A stretch of DNA of 64,000 nucleotides from Actinomycetota bacterium (lineage in GTDB: Bacteria; Actinomycetota; UBA4738; HRBIN12). Within the stretch, counting starts at the first letter, position 1; every line of letters begins with the position of its first letter. Position numbers and translations under genes: made by a program. Shown in pieces: positions 49,921-59,289 of the stretch. The notes beneath the pieces were generated by a model that was given only the letters and a program-made list of their open reading frames with translations, ran no database searches and was not told the origin of the DNA. The stretch is from positions 1-64,000 of the forward strand of contig DASSCU010000051.1 of assembly GCA_035697485.1 (NCBI GenBank), given 5' to 3'.

Positions 49921-50589
49921 ATGCCTCCCCTCGGTGACCGCCTGCTCCAGGCGTGCGGCCTGGTCGGCCCCGTGTTGTTCACGACCGCGTGGATCGGCGC
50001 GAGTCGCCGCCAGCCCAGCTACTCGCCCGCGAACGAGCACATCAGCGGCCTCGCGGCCCCCGACGCCAGCGCGCCGTTCGTCATGACCGCAGGCTTCTGG
50101 GCGCTCGGCATCGGCGCGATCGGATTCGCGGCCTCGCTCGAACGTCGGCTCGGTGACGCCGGGAACGGGCCCACGCTGCTGGGCGCATCGGGGCTCGCGA
50201 TCTGCGCCGCCGGGGGCATGCGTCGCGACCGCATGTCGAACTGGCCGATGCCGGGCGAGCCCATCGGACGCCAGTCGTGGATGAACGACGCCCACGACCT
50301 CGCCTCGGTGATCGGACACGTCTGCGCGACGGCCGGACTCCTGTCACTCGCGGCTCGCCTGCGCCGCGAACCCGAACTGCGGGACCTGGCCCTGCCGGCT
50401 GCGGGAGCGGCGATCGGCTCGAGCGGGGTGATGTCGTACTTCGCCCGGGACGTGGTGCGCCCGGGCAACGGCATCGTGCAGCGGGTCGGCATCACGATCC
50501 CGTTGGCCTACATGATGCGGCTCGCGTGGCGCCTGCTGCGGGAGGATCGGGCGGGTCGCCGACCCCGCGACGGTCACCGGTCGAGCTGA
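49921..50589 (+). CDS. DUF998-family membrane protein
   Basis: 222 aa, about six TM helices. The opening QACGLVGPVLFTTAWIGASR and YSPANEHISGLAAPDASAPF (the N-x-x-S/ISxL element) fit DUF998, a widespread actinobacterial membrane family of unknown role. Start decided by the TACCAT -10. Its last 16 nt overlap the ribF end tail to tail. Confidence 0.78.
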   Translation: MPPLGDRLLQACGLVGPVLFTTAWIGASRRQPSYSPANEHISGLAAPDASAPFVMTAGFWALGIGAIGFAASLERRLGDAGNGPTLLGASGLAICAAGGMRRDRMSNWPMPGEPIGRQSWMNDAHDLASVIGHVCATAGLLSLAARLRREPELRDLALPAAGAAIGSSGVMSYFARDVVRPGNGIVQRVGITIPLAYMMRLAWRLLREDRAGRRPRDGHRSS

Positions 50590-51518
50590 TCGTCGTGCAC
50601 GATCGCCCGCGTGCGTTCGACGTCGTCGGCGATCGCCGCGATCAGCTCGTCGATCGACTCGTACTGGATCTCGTCGCGCAGACGCTCCCAGAACTCGATC
50701 GCGAGCGGCTCCCCGCGGAGCTCGTCACCCTCGAAATCGAGCAGGAAAGCTTCGACGTGCAGCGGCTCCACGCCGAACGTGGGGTTCGTGCCGACGTCGA
50801 TCGCGGCCCGGTACCGGCGACCTCTGAGTTCGGCCACGCCCGCGTAGATCCCCTGCCCCGGCAGCATCAGGCGCGGCCAGGTCCGCAGGTTCGCCGTCGG
50901 GAAGCCGAGCCCCTTGCCGCGACCGTGCCCCGAGATCACCTCGCCGTCGAGCACGAAGCGCCGCCCGAGCGCCTCGGCCGGCCACGTCAGTTCGCCCGCG
51001 GCCAGGGCGTCGCGGATCGACGATGACGATACCGTGCGTCCATGGAGCTCGAACAGCGGCACCCCCTCGGCGGTCAAGCCGTACCGGGCCCCCATCTCGG
51101 ACAGCATCGCGACCGTGCCCGCTGCCTTGTAGCCGAACGTGAAGTTCGCACCCATCGCCGCGTGCCGTGCGTGCACGCCGTCGACGAGCACGGTGCGGAC
51201 GAAGTCCTCCGCGAGGATGTGCGAGAACTCCGGGGTGAACTCGAGCACCAGAAGAACATCGAGCCCACTCGCTCCGATGAGCGCCGCCTTTCGATCGACC
51301 GTGGTCAGCAGACGAGGTTCGTTGCCCGGGGTCAGGATCTCGCGAGGGTGGCGGTCGAAGGTGATGCCGATCGAACCGATGCCGCGGTCGCGGGCCCGAG
51401 CGACCGTGGTGTCGATCACCGACCGGTGCCCGAGGTGGACGCCGTCGAAGAAGCCGACGGTCACGACCGAGGGTGCCTCCAGCAGCGGCAACGCATCGAA
51501 CCCATGCACGACCTGCAT
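50574..51518 (-). CDS. ribF: Bifunctional riboflavin kinase/FMN adenylyltransferase
   Basis: 314 aa; converts riboflavin to FMN then FAD. FAD synthetase part: VVTVGFFDGVHLGHRSVIDT, ITFDRHPREILTP, GANFTFGYKAAGT and the SSSSIRDAL ISSS-like motif. Kinase part: VISGHGRGKGLGFPTANL, PGQGIYAGVAEL and FLLDFEGDEL. ATG leaderless after TAGGCT. In many genomes ribF is next to truB; here a 6.9-kb block separates them. Confidence 0.96.
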   Translation of the reverse strand: MQVVHGFDALPLLEAPSVVTVGFFDGVHLGHRSVIDTTVARARDRGIGSIGITFDRHPREILTPGNEPRLLTTVDRKAALIGASGLDVLLVLEFTPEFSHILAEDFVRTVLVDGVHARHAAMGANFTFGYKAAGTVAMLSEMGARYGLTAEGVPLFELHGRTVSSSSIRDALAAGELTWPAEALGRRFVLDGEVISGHGRGKGLGFPTANLRTWPRLMLPGQGIYAGVAELRGRRYRAAIDVGTNPTFGVEPLHVEAFLLDFEGDELRGEPLAIEFWERLRDEIQYESIDELIAAIADDVERTRAIVHDDQLDR

Positions 51519-51526
51519 CGCGCGAG

Positions 51527-51532
51527 AGCCTA
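51527..51532 (-). promoter_or_regulatory. -10 element TAGGCT, leaderless ribF promoter
   Basis: TAGGCT on the minus strand ends 8 nt before the ribF ATG (51518). Confidence 0.5.
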
Positions 51533-51597
51533 GCCGACGTCCCCCTGTGCCTGTCCCACGCGACACCCGGGCGCGACCCCCCGGCCCGTCGCTGGAG

Positions 51598-51610: not shown

Positions 51611-52525
51611 ATGGGCGCGAGGACGATGGGTGTGCTGCTGGTCATGATCACGGCGTCGATCGCCGCATGTGGGCCGGCGACACCGGTGGACCACACGCTC
51701 GAGGACGATGCGATCACGATCGCGTCCTTCGACTTCGACGAGAGCGAGACGATCGCCGAGGTCTACGCCGGCGCGCTGCGAGCCCAGGGCTTCGAGGTCC
51801 GACACCTCCGCCGCGTCGGAGCACGAGAGGTCGTGCTGCCGGCGCTCGAGCGGGGATTGATCGAGATCGTGCCCGAGTACGCCGGAAGCGCGGTCGCGTT
51901 CTTGGGGGGTCGGCCCTCGGTCGACCCGGACTCGTCGCTGGCGACGCTGCGCGTCTCGCTCGGCTCCCGCGACATCGAAGTTCTCGACCCGGCTCCCGCC
52001 CAGAGCAGGAACGGCCTCGTGGTCACGACCGAGACCGCGACGGAGCATGCGCTGCGAACGGTGAGCGACCTGCGAAAGGTCGCCTCCGCAATGACGCTCG
52101 GAGGACCGCCTGAGTGCCCCGAGCGAGACCTCTGCCTGCTCGGCCTCACCCAGACCTACGGCCTGGAGTTCGCGTCGTTCCTACCCCTCGACGCGGGCGG
52201 ACCGATCACGGCTGCTGCGGTCCAGCAGGGGACGGTGGACGTCGGGGTGCTGTTCACGAGCGACGGAAGCCTCGCGGAGCACGGGCTCGTGCTGCTGCAG
52301 GACGATCGGCGCCTACAGCCTGCGGAGAACGTGACGCCGCTCGTGCGACGTGACGCCGTGGAACGCTTCGGCCCCGAACTGACCGAGGCGATCGACGCGG
52401 TGTCGGCCGAGCTGACCACCACCGAGCTCCGATCGCTCAACGCCCTCGTCAGCTCGGGCGTCGCTCCGGCCGTGGCGGCGGCCAGATGGTTGGACGAGCA
52501 CCACCTCGGGAACGCCTCCGGGTAG
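51611..52525 (+). CDS. OpuAC/ProX-like glycine-betaine-type binding lipoprotein
   Basis: 304 aa. Lipoprotein signal with lipobox SIAAC; then ITIASFDFDESETIAEVYAG, the typical opening of OpuBC/ProX quaternary-amine binding proteins, and IEIVPEYAGSAVAFLGG. The last lobe TTTELRSLNALVSSGVAPAV fits the family end. No ABC permease or ATPase gene is nearby, so it is an orphan. The ligand could be a compatible solute or choline; not decidable. Confidence 0.85.
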   Translation: MGARTMGVLLVMITASIAACGPATPVDHTLEDDAITIASFDFDESETIAEVYAGALRAQGFEVRHLRRVGAREVVLPALERGLIEIVPEYAGSAVAFLGGRPSVDPDSSLATLRVSLGSRDIEVLDPAPAQSRNGLVVTTETATEHALRTVSDLRKVASAMTLGGPPECPERDLCLLGLTQTYGLEFASFLPLDAGGPITAAAVQQGTVDVGVLFTSDGSLAEHGLVLLQDDRRLQPAENVTPLVRRDAVERFGPELTEAIDAVSAELTTTELRSLNALVSSGVAPAVAAARWLDEHHLGNASG

Positions 52526-52554: not shown

Positions 52555-54243
52555 ATGGACGCCGCCGAGCGGACGACCGAGACCACCCACGAGCATCGAC
52601 GACGCCAGCTCGGTCCCGACGTGCGGCGGCGCCCCTCGGGCGAGGCGCCGCCACTGCCGCGGGAGCTCGGGAAGAGCGGGAAGTTCTGGCTGTTCATGGC
52701 TGCCTACTTCCTGGCCACGGTGATCGGCATCGTGCTGTTCGAGCCGTCAGAACGCCTCTTCGAGCGGGTCGACACGGCGGTGCTGCGATGGTTCGCCTCG
52801 TGGCGCGCTGAGCCTCTCACCGACGTCATGGAGATGATCGCCCTCCTCACGTCCCGGTGGGCGATCCGCATCCTGCGATGGGGCACGATCGCGACGCTGA
52901 TCGTGGTCCGCCGGTGGCGTCACCTGCTCGTGTTCATCGGCGCCCTGATCGTCGAGGCCTTCGTGACGTACGGGCTGACACTGGCGATCCACCGGCCGCG
53001 GCCGCTCGACGTGATCACGATCGGGCCGTGGCAGGACTTCGGGATGCCGTCGAGGCAGCTCGCCGGCCTCGCCGTCACCCTGGTCGGCATCACGTACTCG
53101 TTGATCCCGCACGGACGGTGGCGAGAGGCCTCGAAGTGGGCCACCGGAGGCGTGCTCCTGGTCGTCGGCATCGCTCGGGTCTACCTCGCGGTCGACCACC
53201 CCACCGACGCGATCTTCGGCGCCGTGCTGGGGGTCGCGATCGGGCTCACTGCGTTCCGCTGGTTCGCGCCGAACGACGTCTTCCCGGTGACCTATCGACG
53301 CGGGAAGTCGGCGCATCTCGACGTCGGAGGCCGACGGGGTGAAGCGATCGCCACCGCCGTCCGCGATCAGCTCGGCTACCGCGTGCTCGACGTGGAACCC
53401 GTGGGGTTGGAAGGGTCTGGCGGCTCAACGCCCTTGCGATTGCGAGTACGCGAGGAAGGCTCCGGCACGGAGCGGGTGCTGTTCGCGAAGCTGTACGCGA
53501 AGAACCACGTCCGCGCCGATCGCTGGTACAAGCTCGGACGCACGATCTTGTACGGCAAGCTCGAGGACGAGACCCCGTTCCAGACGGTGCGCCGGTTCGT
53601 GGAGTACGAGGACTACACGCTCAGGCTGATGGAGGATCTCGACCTGCCCGTGCCGCGCCCGTACGGCGTCGTCGAGATCACCCCCGAACGCGAGTACATG
53701 ATCGTGATGGAGTTCTTCGTCGGTGCCGTCGAGATCGGCGAGGCGGAGGTCGACGACCGCGTGATCGACCAAGGACTGCGGCTCGTGCGCGAGATGTGGG
53801 ACGAGGGTCTGGCCCACCGTGACATCAAGCCCGCCAACCTCATGGTGCTCGGCGGAGACCTGAAGCTGATCGACGTCTTCTTCGTGCAGGTACGGCCCTC
53901 CCCCTGGCGTCAGGCCGTCGACCTCGCGAACATGATGATGGTCCTCGGCCTGCGCTCCGACGCGCAACGCGTGTACGAGCACGCCTTGCGCTTGTTCACT
54001 CCGGAGGAGATCGCGGAGGCATTCTCCGCGACCCGAGGCGTGGCGAGCCCCACCCAGCTACGCACGATGATGAAGGAGGACGGCCGCGACCTGCTGGCCG
54101 AGTTCCAGGCGCTCGCGCCCGAACGGGAGCCGATGAAGATCCAACGATGGAGCGTCCGGCGCATCCTGCTCACGATCGGGGTGGTGCTCGTGGCGTTCAT
54201 CGTGCTCGGGTTGTTGGTGTCGAACTGGACGGTGTTCGCGTGA
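52555..54243 (+). CDS. PAP2-like membrane domain fused to a RIO/APH-like kinase (paralogue A)
   Basis: 562 aa. Cytosolic N-terminus with RRRPSGEAPPLPRE (24-37), then about five TM helices (44-235) forming a PAP2-type region. PAP2 motif 1 is reduced to HRPRP (146), motif 2 reads PSRQ instead of PSGH (165-168) and motif 3 keeps Arg and His in RVYLAVDHPTD (208-218). The kinase domain (275-530) has a glycine loop LEGSGGSTPL (285), Lys312 in FAKLYA, the catalytic loop AHRDIKPANLMV (Asp423) and metal Asp440 in KLIDV. It ends with a TM (537-557). So phosphatase activity is doubtful while kinase activity looks possible. AGAGGAA ribosome-binding site; starts a three-gene run with the lipoprotein and PAP2 genes. 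Substrate unknown. Confidence 0.85.
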   Translation: MDAAERTTETTHEHRRRQLGPDVRRRPSGEAPPLPRELGKSGKFWLFMAAYFLATVIGIVLFEPSERLFERVDTAVLRWFASWRAEPLTDVMEMIALLTSRWAIRILRWGTIATLIVVRRWRHLLVFIGALIVEAFVTYGLTLAIHRPRPLDVITIGPWQDFGMPSRQLAGLAVTLVGITYSLIPHGRWREASKWATGGVLLVVGIARVYLAVDHPTDAIFGAVLGVAIGLTAFRWFAPNDVFPVTYRRGKSAHLDVGGRRGEAIATAVRDQLGYRVLDVEPVGLEGSGGSTPLRLRVREEGSGTERVLFAKLYAKNHVRADRWYKLGRTILYGKLEDETPFQTVRRFVEYEDYTLRLMEDLDLPVPRPYGVVEITPEREYMIVMEFFVGAVEIGEAEVDDRVIDQGLRLVREMWDEGLAHRDIKPANLMVLGGDLKLIDVFFVQVRPSPWRQAVDLANMMMVLGLRSDAQRVYEHALRLFTPEEIAEAFSATRGVASPTQLRTMMKEDGRDLLAEFQALAPEREPMKIQRWSVRRILLTIGVVLVAFIVLGLLVSNWTVFA

Positions 54244-54806
54244 GGTGGCCCACGATCGCGCTCTCGATCACGCTGATGTCGGGAGCGATCGCGTGTTCGG
54301 CGGACATCCCGCAACAGCCGGTCTGCGCCCACCTCGACGGCTCGATCCTCGTCCTGGAGGCTCAGTCGGTGCCCTCGGCCACCCGGATCCCCTGCATCGC
54401 CGAGCTCCCGATCGGATGGCGGTTCGCCGGGTCGCTCATACGCGACAGCGGGACCACGCTCTGGCTCGACCACGACCGAGCCGGGGTCCACGCCGTCGAG
54501 ATCGCGCTGATGGCGAGCTGTGACGTCAGCGAGGCCGTGGAGGTCCCCCCGGCACCCGACGAGATCGGCATGCGGACGTACCAGTTGCCCGAGAGTCTCG
54601 ATCCGTTCGTCGGATCGCGGATGCTCCTCTTCGACGGCGGGTGCATCGTGTATCGCTACCGCTTCGCTCAGGGCTCTGAACCCGCCCTCGTGATCGAGGC
54701 CGATCGCGCCGTGTCGACGCTGCCGCGGGCAACGATCGTGTCCGAGGTCCGTCGCGATCTCGACCTCACGGTCTGCGGGGCCGGGGCGCCACCGTGCGCA
54801 GGCTAG
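54240..54806 (+). CDS. Predicted lipoprotein in the PAP2-kinase cluster
   Basis: 188 aa. GTG overlaps the kinase stop (GTGA). Signal peptide with lipobox GAIAC, then a beta-rich domain with four Cys (VCAHLDG, IPCIAEL, ASCDVSEAV, GGCIVYRY) and a Cys pair at the end. No known motif. The overlap means it is co-translated with paralogue A, suggesting an external partner. Function unknown. Confidence 0.68.
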   Translation: MRWPTIALSITLMSGAIACSADIPQQPVCAHLDGSILVLEAQSVPSATRIPCIAELPIGWRFAGSLIRDSGTTLWLDHDRAGVHAVEIALMASCDVSEAVEVPPAPDEIGMRTYQLPESLDPFVGSRMLLFDGGCIVYRYRFAQGSEPALVIEADRAVSTLPRATIVSEVRRDLDLTVCGAGAPPCAG

Positions 54807-54809
54807 TCT
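54804..54809 (+). promoter_or_regulatory. -10 element TAGTCT, leaderless promoter of the PAP2 gene
   Basis: TAGTCT overlaps the previous stop codon and ends 8 nt before the ATG at 54818. Confidence 0.45.
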
Positions 54810-54817
54810 CGCCGACG

Positions 54818-55531
54818 ATGCTGACCGATCACCGACGAGCCTTCCGCTTCTCCCTCGGCCTGCTCGCGTGCCTCGCCTTCATGCTCGTCGCGGTGGGGCG
54901 CCATCCCGAGGAGCTGGCGCCGTTGACCACGGTGTCGTTCATCGGCGAGTTCGACGCCACGGTCGAGCGCTGGGCAGACGACGTGCGTGTCGGCGTGCTC
55001 ACTGGGTTCTTCACGTTCCTGAGCATCGTGGGCGGCGGCCTCGTCACGATCCCCCTCCGCATCGTGGTCGCGACGTGGCTGCTCTTCCGGCGGCGATGGG
55101 TGGCGTTCTCGACCTTCGTGCTCGCGTGGGTCGCGTCGGAGGCGGTGCTCACGTGGCTGAAGATCTTCTTCCACCGGGGGCGTCCGCCTGACCCCCTCGT
55201 GGAGACGAACGGGTTCTCGTTCCCGTCGGGGCATGCCGTGGCCGGCGCCGCGCTCGCCGTCTCCCTGGTGCTGGTGTTCTTCCCACCCGGGCAGCGGCGC
55301 CGCAAATGGGAGCTGCTCGCGGTCGGGTTCACGTTCGTGATGGCGCTGTCACGGGTCTACCTGTCGGCGCACTGGTTCTCCGACGTGGTGACCGGCGTGC
55401 TGCTCGGCACCGGCATCGCGATCGGCTCCGCAGCCCTCGTGACCGAGGTGACGAACGCTCTCAGTGCTCGAGGTGTGATCCCACGGCCGCCGACGCCGCC
55501 CGGCGACCCGCTCGACCCCCGGCTGTCCTGA
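54818..55531 (+). CDS. PAP2-family lipid phosphatase
   Basis: 237 aa, five to six TM helices. All three catalytic motifs are intact: KIFFHRGRP (115-123), FPSGHAV (135-141) and SRVYLSAHWFSD (178-189). Such enzymes dephosphorylate phosphatidate, undecaprenyl-PP or similar lipids. A GTG at 54794 is an alternative start overlapping the lipoprotein gene. It sits between two proteins carrying degenerate PAP2 domains, so it may supply the activity they have lost. Confidence 0.9.
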   Translation: MLTDHRRAFRFSLGLLACLAFMLVAVGRHPEELAPLTTVSFIGEFDATVERWADDVRVGVLTGFFTFLSIVGGGLVTIPLRIVVATWLLFRRRWVAFSTFVLAWVASEAVLTWLKIFFHRGRPPDPLVETNGFSFPSGHAVAGAALAVSLVLVFFPPGQRRRKWELLAVGFTFVMALSRVYLSAHWFSDVVTGVLLGTGIAIGSAALVTEVTNALSARGVIPRPPTPPGDPLDPRLS

Positions 55532-55542
55532 TGCCTCGGGGC

Positions 55543-56667
55543 CTAGGCCGGAGACGCCTGCTGCTCTGCGTCGCTCGGTGACTCCCGCCGCCAGTCCTTC
55601 TTGGCCTTCCAGATCAGGTAGGTGAACGCCCCGAGCGGGATCTGGATGCCGTAGGTCAAGGCACGGAACATCAACACCGCGGCGACGATGGCCGCCTTCT
55701 CGCCATCCGGCGCCGCGGCGGCGAGACCACCGATGTAGCCGAGGTCGATCACCCCGACCCCTCCCGGGGTGATCGGCACGGCGGTGAGCAGCCGGCTGAA
55801 CGAGAACACCGCGAACACCTGGGCGGCGCTCACGTCCTGCTCGGACACCCCCATATTCCGCAGGGAGAGCAGCAACACCAAGTAGAGGGCGACCTGGCTC
55901 AGGATCGTCGTGAGCGTCAGACGCACCCAACGACGCTCCACCAGCCCGATCGTGTCGGCCCGGAACATGACCGCCCGATCGCCCGAGTCGGTCCTCGCCG
56001 GCTTCCCGAACAGCTTCAGGAAGAACGAGAGGATCCGGCCGAACCCATCGCCGATACGACGGGCGAAACGCTCGCTCACGAAGAGCGCCGAGAGCAGGCC
56101 GACCGCGATCGCCAGCACGATCACCCCGACGACCGCCGCGACCACGTAGGCGGACCCACTCTCCCCGGCGATCACGAGGAAGACGAGCGAGATCACCGGC
56201 AGCGCGAGCTTCACGAAGATGTTCCAGATCCCCGTCACGCCGACGTACAGCGCGACGTCCGTGCCCGTGAACCCCCACGATTTGAGGATCGTGTACGTGA
56301 GGCCGACCGCGATCGCCCCGCCCCCCGGCAGCGTGTTCGCAACCGACGTCGTGGTCTGCGTGAGCACCGCCGCCCGGCTCAGCCTCAGGCCAGGGAGGGC
56401 GGCCATGTTCGCCCACCAGTAGGTGAACAGGTTGAAGACCGTGGCCGCGATCAGGGAGAGCAGCTCCAGTCCGGTGAGCGACTCGAACGCCTTCCAGACC
56501 GCGGAATAGTCGGCGACCTTCGGGATCGCGAAGAAGAAGATGCCCCCGACGATGAGGAGGGAGATGACGCCCGACACGATCCGCCTGGCCGGCGAGTGCT
56601 TCTTCGCGGCGTTGGCGGTTCCGTCGGCCGTCGACTCCTCCGCAACGGCGGCGGCAGGCTCGGTCAT
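55543..56667 (-). CDS. YbhN/UPF0104 flippase-like membrane protein
   Basis: 374 aa, about eight TM helices. Signature segments SVANTLPGGGAIAVGLTY and LTAVPITPGGVGVIDLGYIG are those of the lysylphosphatidylglycerol-synthase TM/AglD/YbhN superfamily, thought to flip or handle lipid-linked molecules. No catalytic aminoacyl-transfer domain is present. Leaderless start after TATCCT. Convergent with the PAP2 gene (11 nt) and divergent from paralogue B (90 nt). Confidence 0.88.
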   Translation of the reverse strand: MTEPAAAVAEESTADGTANAAKKHSPARRIVSGVISLLIVGGIFFFAIPKVADYSAVWKAFESLTGLELLSLIAATVFNLFTYWWANMAALPGLRLSRAAVLTQTTTSVANTLPGGGAIAVGLTYTILKSWGFTGTDVALYVGVTGIWNIFVKLALPVISLVFLVIAGESGSAYVVAAVVGVIVLAIAVGLLSALFVSERFARRIGDGFGRILSFFLKLFGKPARTDSGDRAVMFRADTIGLVERRWVRLTLTTILSQVALYLVLLLSLRNMGVSEQDVSAAQVFAVFSFSRLLTAVPITPGGVGVIDLGYIGGLAAAAPDGEKAAIVAAVLMFRALTYGIQIPLGAFTYLIWKAKKDWRRESPSDAEQQASPA

Positions 56668-56673
56668 CGGGTG

Positions 56674-56679
56674 AGGATA
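56674..56679 (-). promoter_or_regulatory. -10 element TATCCT, leaderless promoter of the flippase-like gene
   Basis: TATCCT on the minus strand ends 6 nt before the ATG at 56667. Confidence 0.5.
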
Positions 56680-56743
56680 GCGCGCCCCGACCGGAAGGAC
56701 CTCCGCACCGTGCGCGGGACCCACTCGCCGGGCGCCACTCCGC

Positions 56744-56749
56744 TAGGCT
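56744..56749 (+). promoter_or_regulatory. -10 element TAGGCT, leaderless promoter of paralogue B
   Basis: TAGGCT ends 8 nt before the ATG at 56758; no Shine-Dalgarno sequence. Confidence 0.5.
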
Positions 56750-56757
56750 CCCGCCTG

Positions 56758-58413
56758 ATGGAACGGCAGGCCACGACCTCGACCGCGCCCTCGTCCGCCG
56801 GGCGCGTGCATCGCCAGCGTCGGCCCTCGGGCGAGCCACCGCCACTCCCGCGCCCGTCGGGTTCGGCCCGGTGGTGGTGGGCGCTGGTGGGCGTGGTGCT
56901 GCTCGGCGTCGCGATCGAGCTCTGGGTCGCCAACTCCGACCAGCCGCACGCGTTCGGCGATGCGGTCCTCCGTGCCTTCGAGGACATCCGTACGCCTGTC
57001 CTCACCGACTTCGCCAAGCTGATCGCCGTGCTCACCACGTTCGGCGCCGTCCAGATCCTCCGGGTCGTGTTGGCGGGCGTGTTGGTCGTGACCAAGCGCT
57101 TCCGCCACCTGGTGGTGGCGCTCGCCACGTTCGTGGTCAGTGACTGGCTGGTGCTGACCTTCCTCGATGTGCAGCGCCCACCCGGAGACGTCGCTCCCCT
57201 GATCGACGCGACGGACTTCCGCTTCCCGTCATGGCCGATGACCGCCTTCGCGATCACGATGTTCGCGATGCCGTTCGTCCTGGCCCCGGCCGGCCGGGCA
57301 AGGAAGCGCGCGATGATCGCCGCCTGGATCGTGGTGGTGCTGGTCGCGCTCTCGCGCCTGTATCTCGCGGCGGACTACCCGTCGAACGTCGCCTACGCGG
57401 CGCTCCTCAGCTGGGTGCTGTCCGAGACGTTGTTCCGATGGTTCGTGCCCGACGAGTCGTTCCCCGTGAGCTACCGGCATGGCGGGAACGCCGCGCACCT
57501 CGACCTCGGAGGGGCGCGAGCCGAGGCCGTGAAGCACGCCATGGCCGACCAGGTCGGGCTCGAGGTGACCGAGGTGGAGCCGTTCGGGCTCGAGGGCTCG
57601 GGCGGATCGTCCCCGCTCCGCATGACGCTCGCCGACGGATCGCGGGTCTTCGGCAAGATCTACGCGACCAGTCACGTGCGAGCCGACCGCTGGTACCGCG
57701 TGGGGCGCACGATCCTCTACGGCAAGCTCGAGGACGAGACCCCCTTCGGATCGGTGCGCAGGCTGGCCGAGTACGAGGACTACGCTCTGCGCTACCTCGC
57801 GATGAACGACGTCACCGTGGCCCACACGTGGGGCATCGTGGAGCTGACGCCGAACCGCGAGTACATGCTCGTCACGGAGTTCTTCGAGGACGCGAAGAAC
57901 CTCGGCGACTCCGAGATCGACGACGTCGTGATCGACGAGGGCCTGCATCTGATCCGCCAGTTCTGGGCCATCGGGATCGCTCACCGCGACATCAAGCCCG
58001 CGAACCTGCTGGTGCAGCACGGGCACCTGCAGCTGGTCGATGTCTCCGGCCTCGAGGTTCGTCCGACGCCGTGGCGCCAGGCGGTCGACCTCGCCAACAT
58101 GATGCTCACCCTCGCGCTGCAGACCGACCCCGACCGTGTTTACGAGCGCGCCACCGCCGTCTTCACGCCGGACGAGATCGCCGAAGCCTTCGCCTGCGCC
58201 GTCGGCATGGCGGTGCCGACCGAGCTCTCCAGCCGGCTGAAGCAGGACCCTCGGCCGATCATGGACCGGTTCGAGGAGCTCGCCCCTCCGCACGAGCCGG
58301 TGTCGATCCAGACCTGGGATCTGCAGCGCATCGCCCTGACGGCCGCCGTCGTGGTCGGGGGACTCGTCCTCCTCGCGATGGCGATCGATTCGCTCTTCGC
58401 CGGACTGGACTGA
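56758..58413 (+). CDS. PAP2-like membrane domain fused to a RIO/APH-like kinase (paralogue B)
   Basis: 551 aa, colinear with paralogue A. Shared N-terminal RRPSGEPPPLPR (21-32), about five TM helices, kinase domain (265-520) and C-terminal TM (528-545). PAP2 motifs are more decayed: QRPPGD (139), PSWP (157-160) and SRLYLAADYPSN with Tyr207 in place of the catalytic His. Kinase motifs are complete: LEGSGGSSPL (278), Lys300 in FGKIYA, AHRDIKPANLLV (Asp411), LVDV (Asp428). Long blocks are near-identical to A, such as RTILYGKLEDETPF and PWRQAVDLANMM, so the kinase is under stronger constraint than the PAP2 part. Its end is convergent with truB. Confidence 0.85.
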   Translation: MERQATTSTAPSSAGRVHRQRRPSGEPPPLPRPSGSARWWWALVGVVLLGVAIELWVANSDQPHAFGDAVLRAFEDIRTPVLTDFAKLIAVLTTFGAVQILRVVLAGVLVVTKRFRHLVVALATFVVSDWLVLTFLDVQRPPGDVAPLIDATDFRFPSWPMTAFAITMFAMPFVLAPAGRARKRAMIAAWIVVVLVALSRLYLAADYPSNVAYAALLSWVLSETLFRWFVPDESFPVSYRHGGNAAHLDLGGARAEAVKHAMADQVGLEVTEVEPFGLEGSGGSSPLRMTLADGSRVFGKIYATSHVRADRWYRVGRTILYGKLEDETPFGSVRRLAEYEDYALRYLAMNDVTVAHTWGIVELTPNREYMLVTEFFEDAKNLGDSEIDDVVIDEGLHLIRQFWAIGIAHRDIKPANLLVQHGHLQLVDVSGLEVRPTPWRQAVDLANMMLTLALQTDPDRVYERATAVFTPDEIAEAFACAVGMAVPTELSSRLKQDPRPIMDRFEELAPPHEPVSIQTWDLQRIALTAAVVVGGLVLLAMAIDSLFAGLD

Positions 58414-58427
58414 GCCTGCTCAGCCAG
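58405..58427. terminator. Hairpin overlapping both convergent stop codons
   Basis: CTGG-A-CTGAGC (58405-58415) pairs with GCTCAGCCAG (58418-58427), one bulged A, tiny loop. It contains the TGA of paralogue B and the TGA of truB. No T-tract; it could be a bidirectional terminator. Confidence 0.4.
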
Positions 58428-59289
58428 GCACCAACACGACGAGCGGCTTCGCTTTGGGTCCGTCGTCCTCGAACACCGCGATCAGCCGTCCGTCGGGGTC
58501 GAGCACGGCGTACGGGCCGTCGATCCCCGCGGGCGCGAGGACGCGGCCGTGTCCCGCCGCCCGGGCCTCCTCGGCGTCGATACGCACGGAGGGGAGATGA
58601 GCGACGGTTTGCTCGATCGGCAGTGGCGCTCCAGGGTCGTCCGGATCGGTCGCGTCCGCGACGTCGAACGGTCCGATCGCGGTGCGTCGCAACGCCGTGA
58701 GGTGAGCCCCACACCCGACGGCCGCCCCGACGTCGGCTGCGAGCACCCGCACGTAGGTCCCCCCACCGCAGGTGACCCCGAGGTCGACGTCGTCGCCCCG
58801 CCGAGCCCGTACCTCGAAGCGGTCGACCCTGATCGGACGCGGCGCGGCCTCGAGCACGTCCCCCGTCCGGGCGGCCTCATAGAGCTTGCGACCTCTTACC
58901 TTGACGGCCGAGTATGCGGGAGGGCGCTGCATCGACGCACCGACGAGCGACGCGACGGCGGCCGCCAGACGATCATCGTCGACCGAGACCGGCTCGACCC
59001 TTGTGACCTCCCCGTCGGCGTCCAGGGTCGTGGTCTCGATGCCCAGGCGCATCGTGGCCTCGTACGTCTTGGGCAGGTCGCCGAGGAAGCGGAGGAGCCG
59101 GGTGGCCCGGCCGACGCCCATGACCAGCAGTCCCGTTGCCATCGGGTCGAGGGTGCCCGAGTGGCCGACCTTCCTCGTGCCGAGGGCCCGGCGAACCTTC
59201 GCCACGGCGTCGTGCGACGTGATACCCGCCGGCTTGTCGACGAGCAGCAGCCCTTCGGGTCCGCCCTCGGTGTCGGGGCGCAAGCTCAC
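58420..59289 (-). CDS. truB: tRNA pseudouridine(55) synthase
   Basis: 289 aa. Catalytic Asp in VGHSGTLDPMATGLLVMG; GLLLVDKPAGITSHD and RPPAYSAVKVRGRKLYEAAR are family segments; a C-terminal PUA-like tail ends with PKAKPLVVLV. GTG start overlapping the nrnA stop (GTGA). Confidence 0.96.
   Translation of the reverse strand: MSLRPDTEGGPEGLLLVDKPAGITSHDAVAKVRRALGTRKVGHSGTLDPMATGLLVMGVGRATRLLRFLGDLPKTYEATMRLGIETTTLDADGEVTRVEPVSVDDDRLAAAVASLVGASMQRPPAYSAVKVRGRKLYEAARTGDVLEAAPRPIRVDRFEVRARRGDDVDLGVTCGGGTYVRVLAADVGAAVGCGAHLTALRRTAIGPFDVADATDPDDPGAPLPIEQTVAHLPSVRIDAEEARAAGHGRVLAPAGIDGPYAVLDPDGRLIAVFEDDGPKAKPLVVLVPG

Follow-up and report, generated by a model that had tools for sequence, protein, structure and literature searches.

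In mycobacteria and corynebacteria, the GlnH-GlnX-PknG system of amino-acid sensing provides a precedent for a kinase controlled by a membrane protein together with a solute-binding protein (PMC6069109, PMC9769921). Here we describe a gene cassette found in a window of 64,000 nucleotides (contig DASSCU010000051.1 of the Actinomycetota assembly GCA_035697485.1), which encodes two fusions, A and B, of a PAP2-like membrane domain with a kinase domain. In that system PknG is separate from its membrane partner, whereas in the cassette the kinase, a PAP2-derived bundle and often a domain located outside the cell form one chain, accompanied by lipid-handling partners. A second parallel is the mycobacterial MviN/MurJ-pseudokinase with FhaA, of the ActPs3 family (PMC12599244). 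It is likewise an actinobacterial lipid-flippase-type protein fused to a (pseudo)kinase and parallels the triple fusions without the HRD Asp described below; in contrast, the kinase of the window fusions is catalytically complete. By analogy, the cassette may be regarded as resembling both systems in principle. MviN itself has the MurJ/MOP fold, which is neither PAP2 nor YbhN.

PASTA receptor kinases such as PknB share with the fusions a cytosolic kinase, a transmembrane (TM) segment and an outside sensing domain. PknB is devoid of a six-TM bundle; conversely, no PASTA domain was found in the fusions, and the PASTA-kinase model is only weakly similar to their kinase (11-12 bits). Proteins named bifunctional PAP2/diacylglycerol kinases at NCBI also join PAP2 to a phosphotransferase, a DAGK_cat domain (PF00781). 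Unlike these, A and B gave no PF00781 match at E values up to 1 in the Pfam scan, and a naming as DAGK_cat-type lipid kinases was therefore rejected.

Composition and distribution of the cassette

At the level of their sequences, a catalysis-less PAP2 domain with an intact kinase, a tethered domain, an orphan binding lipoprotein, an active-looking PAP2 protein and a YbhN-like protein occur together across several actinobacterial orders, in many actinobacteria of soil. We tentatively read the locus as a module of envelope signalling and control, in which a ligand-gated membrane kinase would govern the turnover or the flipping of lipid phosphates; in our estimate this reading falls just short of being probable. 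The genes of the window are the following:

51611..52525, + strand: orphan OpuAC-type (PF04069, 1.3e-43) solute-binding lipoprotein; start inferred, upstream of the lipobox IAAC
52555-54243, + strand: fusion A, 562 aa; basic, cytosolic tail RRPSGxxPPLPR, degenerate 6-TM PAP2 part at about 40-238, kinase at about 275-520, C-terminal TM segment at 534-559
54240-54806, + strand: lipoprotein, a Cys-containing extracytoplasmic domain of no recognised family, elsewhere joined to the kinase C-terminus
about 54794-55531, + strand: intact PAP2-family phosphatase (PF01569, 5.2e-18) with K-x6-RP, PSGH and R-x6-H-x3-D kept
55543-56724, - strand: YbhN-like, flippase-like protein (PF03706, LPG_synthase_TM, 2.4e-19); likely start at the ATG near 56667
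56758-58413, + strand: fusion B, 551 aa, a fast-evolving paralogue of A with complete kinase residues and a more degenerate PAP2 part
50574-51566, - strand: ribF, flanking housekeeping gene outside the system
58420-59289, - strand: truB, flanking housekeeping gene outside the system

The coordinates and domain calls that a sequence-only reading of the window had given for A, B, the lipoprotein, the PAP2 protein and the YbhN-like protein between ribF and truB agree with the six-frame list and the Pfam scan. That reading did not include the upstream OpuAC protein, the fusion of the outside domain to the kinase, the sister family of PAP2-kinase-YbhN proteins, or two further fusion paralogues of the same genome (contigs C17 and C36). 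The PF04069 gene is a member of the gene set: it ends 29 bases before the start of A on the same strand. The genes of A, the lipoprotein and the PAP2 protein overlap at their ends; the lipoprotein begins with a GTG that overlaps the stop codon (TGA) of A. The YbhN gene lies tail to tail with the PAP2 gene and is divergent from that of B.

Relatives carry fusions at 48-81% identity. In a sample of the phylum, matches were detected in 30 of 292 good genomes; 13 of them are of the close type (at least 50% identity, counted by rows) and the others mostly of a distant type with frames of about 800-980 residues. A scan of named genomes recovered 79 loci, from Acidimicrobiia, Geodermatophilaceae, Frankiaceae, Micromonosporaceae, Pseudonocardiales and Nanopelagicales; a few records labelled otherwise (among them "Acidobacteria" metagenome-assembled genomes and an unverified "Bacillus") may be mislabelled. 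Cultured carriers belong to the genera Blastococcus, Geodermatophilus, Modestobacter and Virgisporangium. The sequence-only reading had left the recurrence of the fusion and its neighbourhood to a database search, and these 79 loci in other genomes indicate that the grouping is not due to chance. One copy (L021:50-1759) shows by eye an aldo/keto reductase-like C-terminal tail, which is either an assembly chimera or a real fusion.

Within 5 kb of the 44 well-flanked copies, we found YbhN in 39, OpuAC in 31, a further PAP2 in 30, and all of these together with the outside domain in 21; these counts are not independent, as the copies are related, and these same loci served to build the profiles. 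In the fetched loci, YbhN has a density of 94/Mb within 5 kb versus 2/Mb beyond, and OpuAC of 68 versus 0. The YbhN gene is placed upstream on the same strand, downstream on the same strand or downstream on the opposite strand, and OpuAC lies on either the same or the opposite strand. As order and strand vary and the partners nevertheless stay together, selection to remain together is argued for, and the cassette, recurring with shuffled order in Acidimicrobiia, Geodermatophilaceae, Frankiaceae and Micromonosporaceae, is therefore a functional unit. Its position between ribF and truB is shared by L043, L045 and L047, and other sites are occupied in L044 and L049. Clustering of the wider neighbourhoods, in which GC-rich shadow open reading frames swamped the signal, gave no recognisable broadly conserved partner beyond the cassette and a kinase-YbhN fusion.

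The pseudo-PAP2 and kinase domains of the fusions

A and B are colinear paralogues with 46% identity, as their alignment confirms. In the kinase tree the end branch of B (0.97) is much longer than that of A (0.11), B being much faster-evolving. The PAP2 part of A belongs to the Pfam fold (1e-9, 38.7 bits for a cut-off of 27.2), and that of B falls just below it (1.2e-5, 25.5 bits). The family profile matches the solved PAP2 structures YodM/PgpB across the membrane part (2e-15). The structure model of A (mean pLDDT, the predicted local distance difference test, of 81) has helices over the PAP2 part, followed by a mixed domain that resembles a kinase and by a final TM helix. The residues read from the sequence alone held up: motif 2 is PSRQ in A, with the motif-3 His kept, and PSWP in B, where motif 3 has Tyr for His and Asn for Asp; both proteins have GSGGS, Lys, HRDIKPAN and Asp. 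Among 48 aligned fusions, none retains the motif-1 Lys or the motif-2 His, the latter being replaced by Pro in 44, whereas RP and the motif-2 Pro-Ser are mostly kept and motif 3 is partly kept (Arg in 41, the nucleophilic His in 37, Asp in 46). Neither A nor B thus retains the set of an active PAP2 phosphatase (motif-1 Lys, PSGH, motif-3 R/H/D). The description of the PAP2 part as a pseudo-phosphatase beside an intact kinase, first made on A and B, extends to the whole family.

Concerning the kinase, Lys312, Glu352, HRDxKPxN and Asp440 are invariant in the 48 fusions, which therefore contain the catalytic set of the protein kinase superfamily (Lys, alpha-C Glu, HRDxKxxN, metal-binding Asp). 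The profile matches are all under their cut-offs: Pkinase (21.6 bits versus 31.7, with an alignment ending at residue 440), RIO1 (21.6 versus 22.0) and Bud32 (18.8 versus 125) in A, and Kdo (13.7 versus 21.3) in B. The structure model matches kinase folds at E values of about 1e-6, the top structural matches being protein kinases. Only 16 residues separate Asp440 from the invariant Asp456, the Gly of DFG is absent, and the DFG and APE segment that precedes the alpha-F Asp in classical eukaryote-like protein kinases was not found in the fusions. A short segment after the metal-binding Asp, without the DFG Gly, is also typical of Bud32/RIO-like kinases. The type of substrate is therefore not readable from the sequence, and the short segment leaves room for substrates other than proteins. 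An assignment to the anti-phage defence kinases PD-T4-6 and PglW was rejected, the PADLOC matches (12-22 bits) being confined to the catalytic loop.

Extracytoplasmic components and lipid-handling partners

The OpuAC-type protein is a clear member of its fold (PF04069, 149.9 bits for a cut-off of 21.2) and scores as high as 86 bits against solved proteins of the OpuBC, OpuCC and EgtU type. In OpuCC four aromatic positions form a cage for quaternary amines; the role of the cage is described in PMC9732360 and PMC6207618. Among the 47 cassette members, the first cage position of OpuCC is kept as Tyr in all (Y91), the second is Asn in 46 (Y137), the third is Glu in 25 or Phe in 22 (Y217) and the fourth is Glu in 46 (Y241). 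This numbering of the OpuCC cage agrees with the aligned chain. Unlike the solved proteins, the cassette members thus lack two of the four aromatics in at least 46 of 47 sequences; in 25 of the 47 a third is lost too. They do not display the cage expected for choline or betaine. As the cage aromatics are mostly replaced, the ligand is probably neither choline nor betaine. No ABC permease or ATPase gene is adjacent to the OpuAC gene in the open reading frame list of the window, and a betaine/choline uptake system was discarded on these two grounds. Elsewhere in the same genome (contig C29, L140:2998-5267), the gene of a membrane class III adenylate/guanylate cyclase, whose catalytic domain is backed by Pfam, overlaps that of an orphan OpuAC lipoprotein, and the two look like a solute-sensing pair. 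Another OpuAC gene of this genome (L141) is included in a normal ABC operon.

In the C17 paralogue and in many relatives, the domain of the window lipoprotein is joined to the kinase C-terminus, past the last TM segment. This outside domain is adjacent or fused in 81 of 84 fusion copies, and fused in 24 of them. Fused copies have the TM segment and no lipobox (25/25, a count that includes loci of the same genome), and separate copies have a lipobox in 54 of 59; the domain is therefore membrane-tethered in either form. It is predicted to face the cell exterior and the kinase to be cytosolic, and the full architecture, pseudo-PAP2, cytosolic kinase, TM segment and outside domain, is on this prediction a receptor-kinase layout. 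B (window 56758-58413) is followed by no outside domain of its own. Cysteines are conserved at positions 11, 34, 76 and 117 of the mature domain. The domain has no significant Pfam match and no relative among PDB sequences; its structure model is confident (pLDDT 94.5) and has no PDB match at E values up to 0.001. The top matches to BT_1490, Mtb Apa, PsbP and RseB were too weak to name the fold. In one group of Acidimicrobiia the lipoprotein domain is longer, with an extra inserted stretch (L079:10089-10865 and L081:11710-12492).

The stand-alone PAP2 protein belongs to the phosphatase family (PF01569, 65.5 bits), with the motifs K-IFFHRG-RP, PSGH and RVYLSAHWFSD, and is weakly similar to the SepP/PgpB models. 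The YbhN-like protein covers positions 2-302 of the 302 of the PF03706 profile (70.4 bits versus a cut-off of 33.4). PF03706 stands alone in this protein of 393 aa, and the MprF model gives 45.7 bits versus 600, which does not correspond to an MprF synthase/flippase. Only three PF03706 regions were found in the genome. Both proteins had been proposed as partners of the fusions from the window alone; the presence of YbhN near most copies and the existence of single-chain PAP2-kinase-YbhN proteins indicate that they are true partners.

These triple fusions represent the distant, sister type, in which a PAP2 or PAP2-like part, a kinase and YbhN form one chain. In the kinase tree (midpoint root, long branches) they are a fully supported group apart from the other fusions. 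All PAP2 motifs are complete in L038 and L040, as read from the translations. Of the 16 triple fusions, 10 no longer have the HRD Asp, and all 10 come from loci that also have a complete fusion. These sequences, with HRS, HRA, HRG or HRH, are L061:12133-14535, L069, L070, L073, L076, L082, L095, L100, L120 and L129. Their loci would thus hold pairs of a pseudokinase and an active kinase, and the triple fusion may supply the YbhN part there. In the genome of the window (contig C25, L138:3916-6525), a frame of 870 aa is PAP2-like at its N-terminus and has a C-terminal PF03706 domain; its kinase region, where HGRVDADRL replaces HRDxxxxN, is strongly degenerate.

Proposed mechanism and alternatives

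In the envelope control that we tentatively favour, an outside ligand would be caught by the OpuAC-type protein, the outside domain or both, and a lipid phosphate could be held in the dead PAP2 pocket. The ligand, and possibly the lipid phosphate, would switch the kinase, which would then phosphorylate itself and/or partner proteins and so set the rates of lipid-phosphate dephosphorylation by the intact PAP2 and of movement by YbhN. The candidate lipid may be a carrier of the undecaprenyl-phosphate type or a phospholipid. In the triple fusions this control would be built into the flippase chain, with the kinase, often without catalytic Asp, acting as a scaffold. Ligand sensing, binding of a lipid phosphate in the dead pocket and a phosphorylation output onto the envelope lipid machinery are the steps that we infer. 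The cyclase locus L140, where a related binding protein again accompanies a signalling enzyme of the membrane, is counted in favour of this control as a second instance. Several points weigh against it. OpuAC is missing near about 30% of the well-flanked copies and an intact PAP2 near about 32%, so that neither gene is a strict requirement there, and B has no outside domain following it. The membrane topology is predicted from hydropathy, from lipoboxes and from the structure model. A typical peptide-binding activation loop would not fit in the short segment after Asp440; phosphorylation of proteins is therefore not assured.

The degenerate PAP2 could instead present a lipid alcohol, be it polyprenol, diacylglycerol or a glycolipid, to the kinase for direct phosphorylation, with the intact PAP2 reversing this reaction and YbhN flipping the product. 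Such a kinase-phosphatase cycle, put forward by the sequence-only reading, is possible, less favoured than envelope control and, in our judgement, unlikely. Both families join the kinase to a lipid-phosphate fold, L038 and L040 hold kinase, complete PAP2 and flippase-like parts in one chain, and the short segment after Asp440 recalls the RIO, Bud32 and Kdo kinases, which have no classical peptide-binding loop. However, HRDxKPxN with its invariant Lys and Pro is the form of Ser/Thr protein kinases, to which the model and profile matches also go, the layout is that of a receptor kinase, the conserved outside domain and the solute-binding protein are left unexplained, and the loss of the kinase Asp in most triple fusions is odd for a biosynthetic enzyme. 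The cycle therefore gained no specific support, whereas the pseudo-PAP2, the intact kinase and the YbhN and PAP2 partners of the same reading stood. It is likewise rather improbable that the fusions are general receptor kinases for an outside solute, with targets other than lipid enzymes (e.g. central metabolism or transcription) and a pseudo-PAP2 acting only as membrane anchor and dimeriser: the parts list (binding lipoprotein, membrane protein, kinase) is like that of GlnH-GlnX-PknG and a second orphan OpuAC lies beside a cyclase, but the retention of YbhN and the extra PAP2 through changes of order, and the triple fusions, would be unexplained.

We consider it quite improbable that the kinase domain acts as an ATPase or autokinase of the Bud32/RIO-like kind, which would be a conformational switch of the membrane part and have no substrate apart from it. 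The alignments that continue beyond the catalytic Asp are indeed those to Bud32 TIGR03724 (A 360-464) and to the 226-residue kinase 8k20_B, but with weak scores (18.8 bits against the 125-bit cut-off, and 24.3 bits). That unrelated membrane genes came together by chance between ribF and truB has a negligible probability. This site is common to the close relatives L043, L045 and L047, where a hitch-hiking insertion could look conserved; the same components are nevertheless found together at unrelated sites in genomes from several orders, where their arrangement and strand vary, and they also fuse to one another; on this ground chance was ruled out.

The cassette is a real and recurrent system and represents a variant of membrane kinase signalling. 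It is apparently undescribed, as the literature searched, which does not extend to subscription papers, contained no account of the fusion. More doubtful than envelope control itself is that it represents a new class of actinobacterial membrane receptor kinases, in which the dead PAP2 would be a lipid-phosphate sensor, the binding protein and the outside domain would report on the surface, and the kinase would directly govern the YbhN flippase and the phosphatase. To our knowledge, neither the substrate nor the control of most of the widespread YbhN/PF03706 proteins other than MprF is known. A cassette linking YbhN to a kinase, a phosphatase, a binding protein and an outside domain, together with the single-chain fusions, offers a route into the function and regulation of these flippase-like proteins, and its presence in cultured genera makes the system testable.

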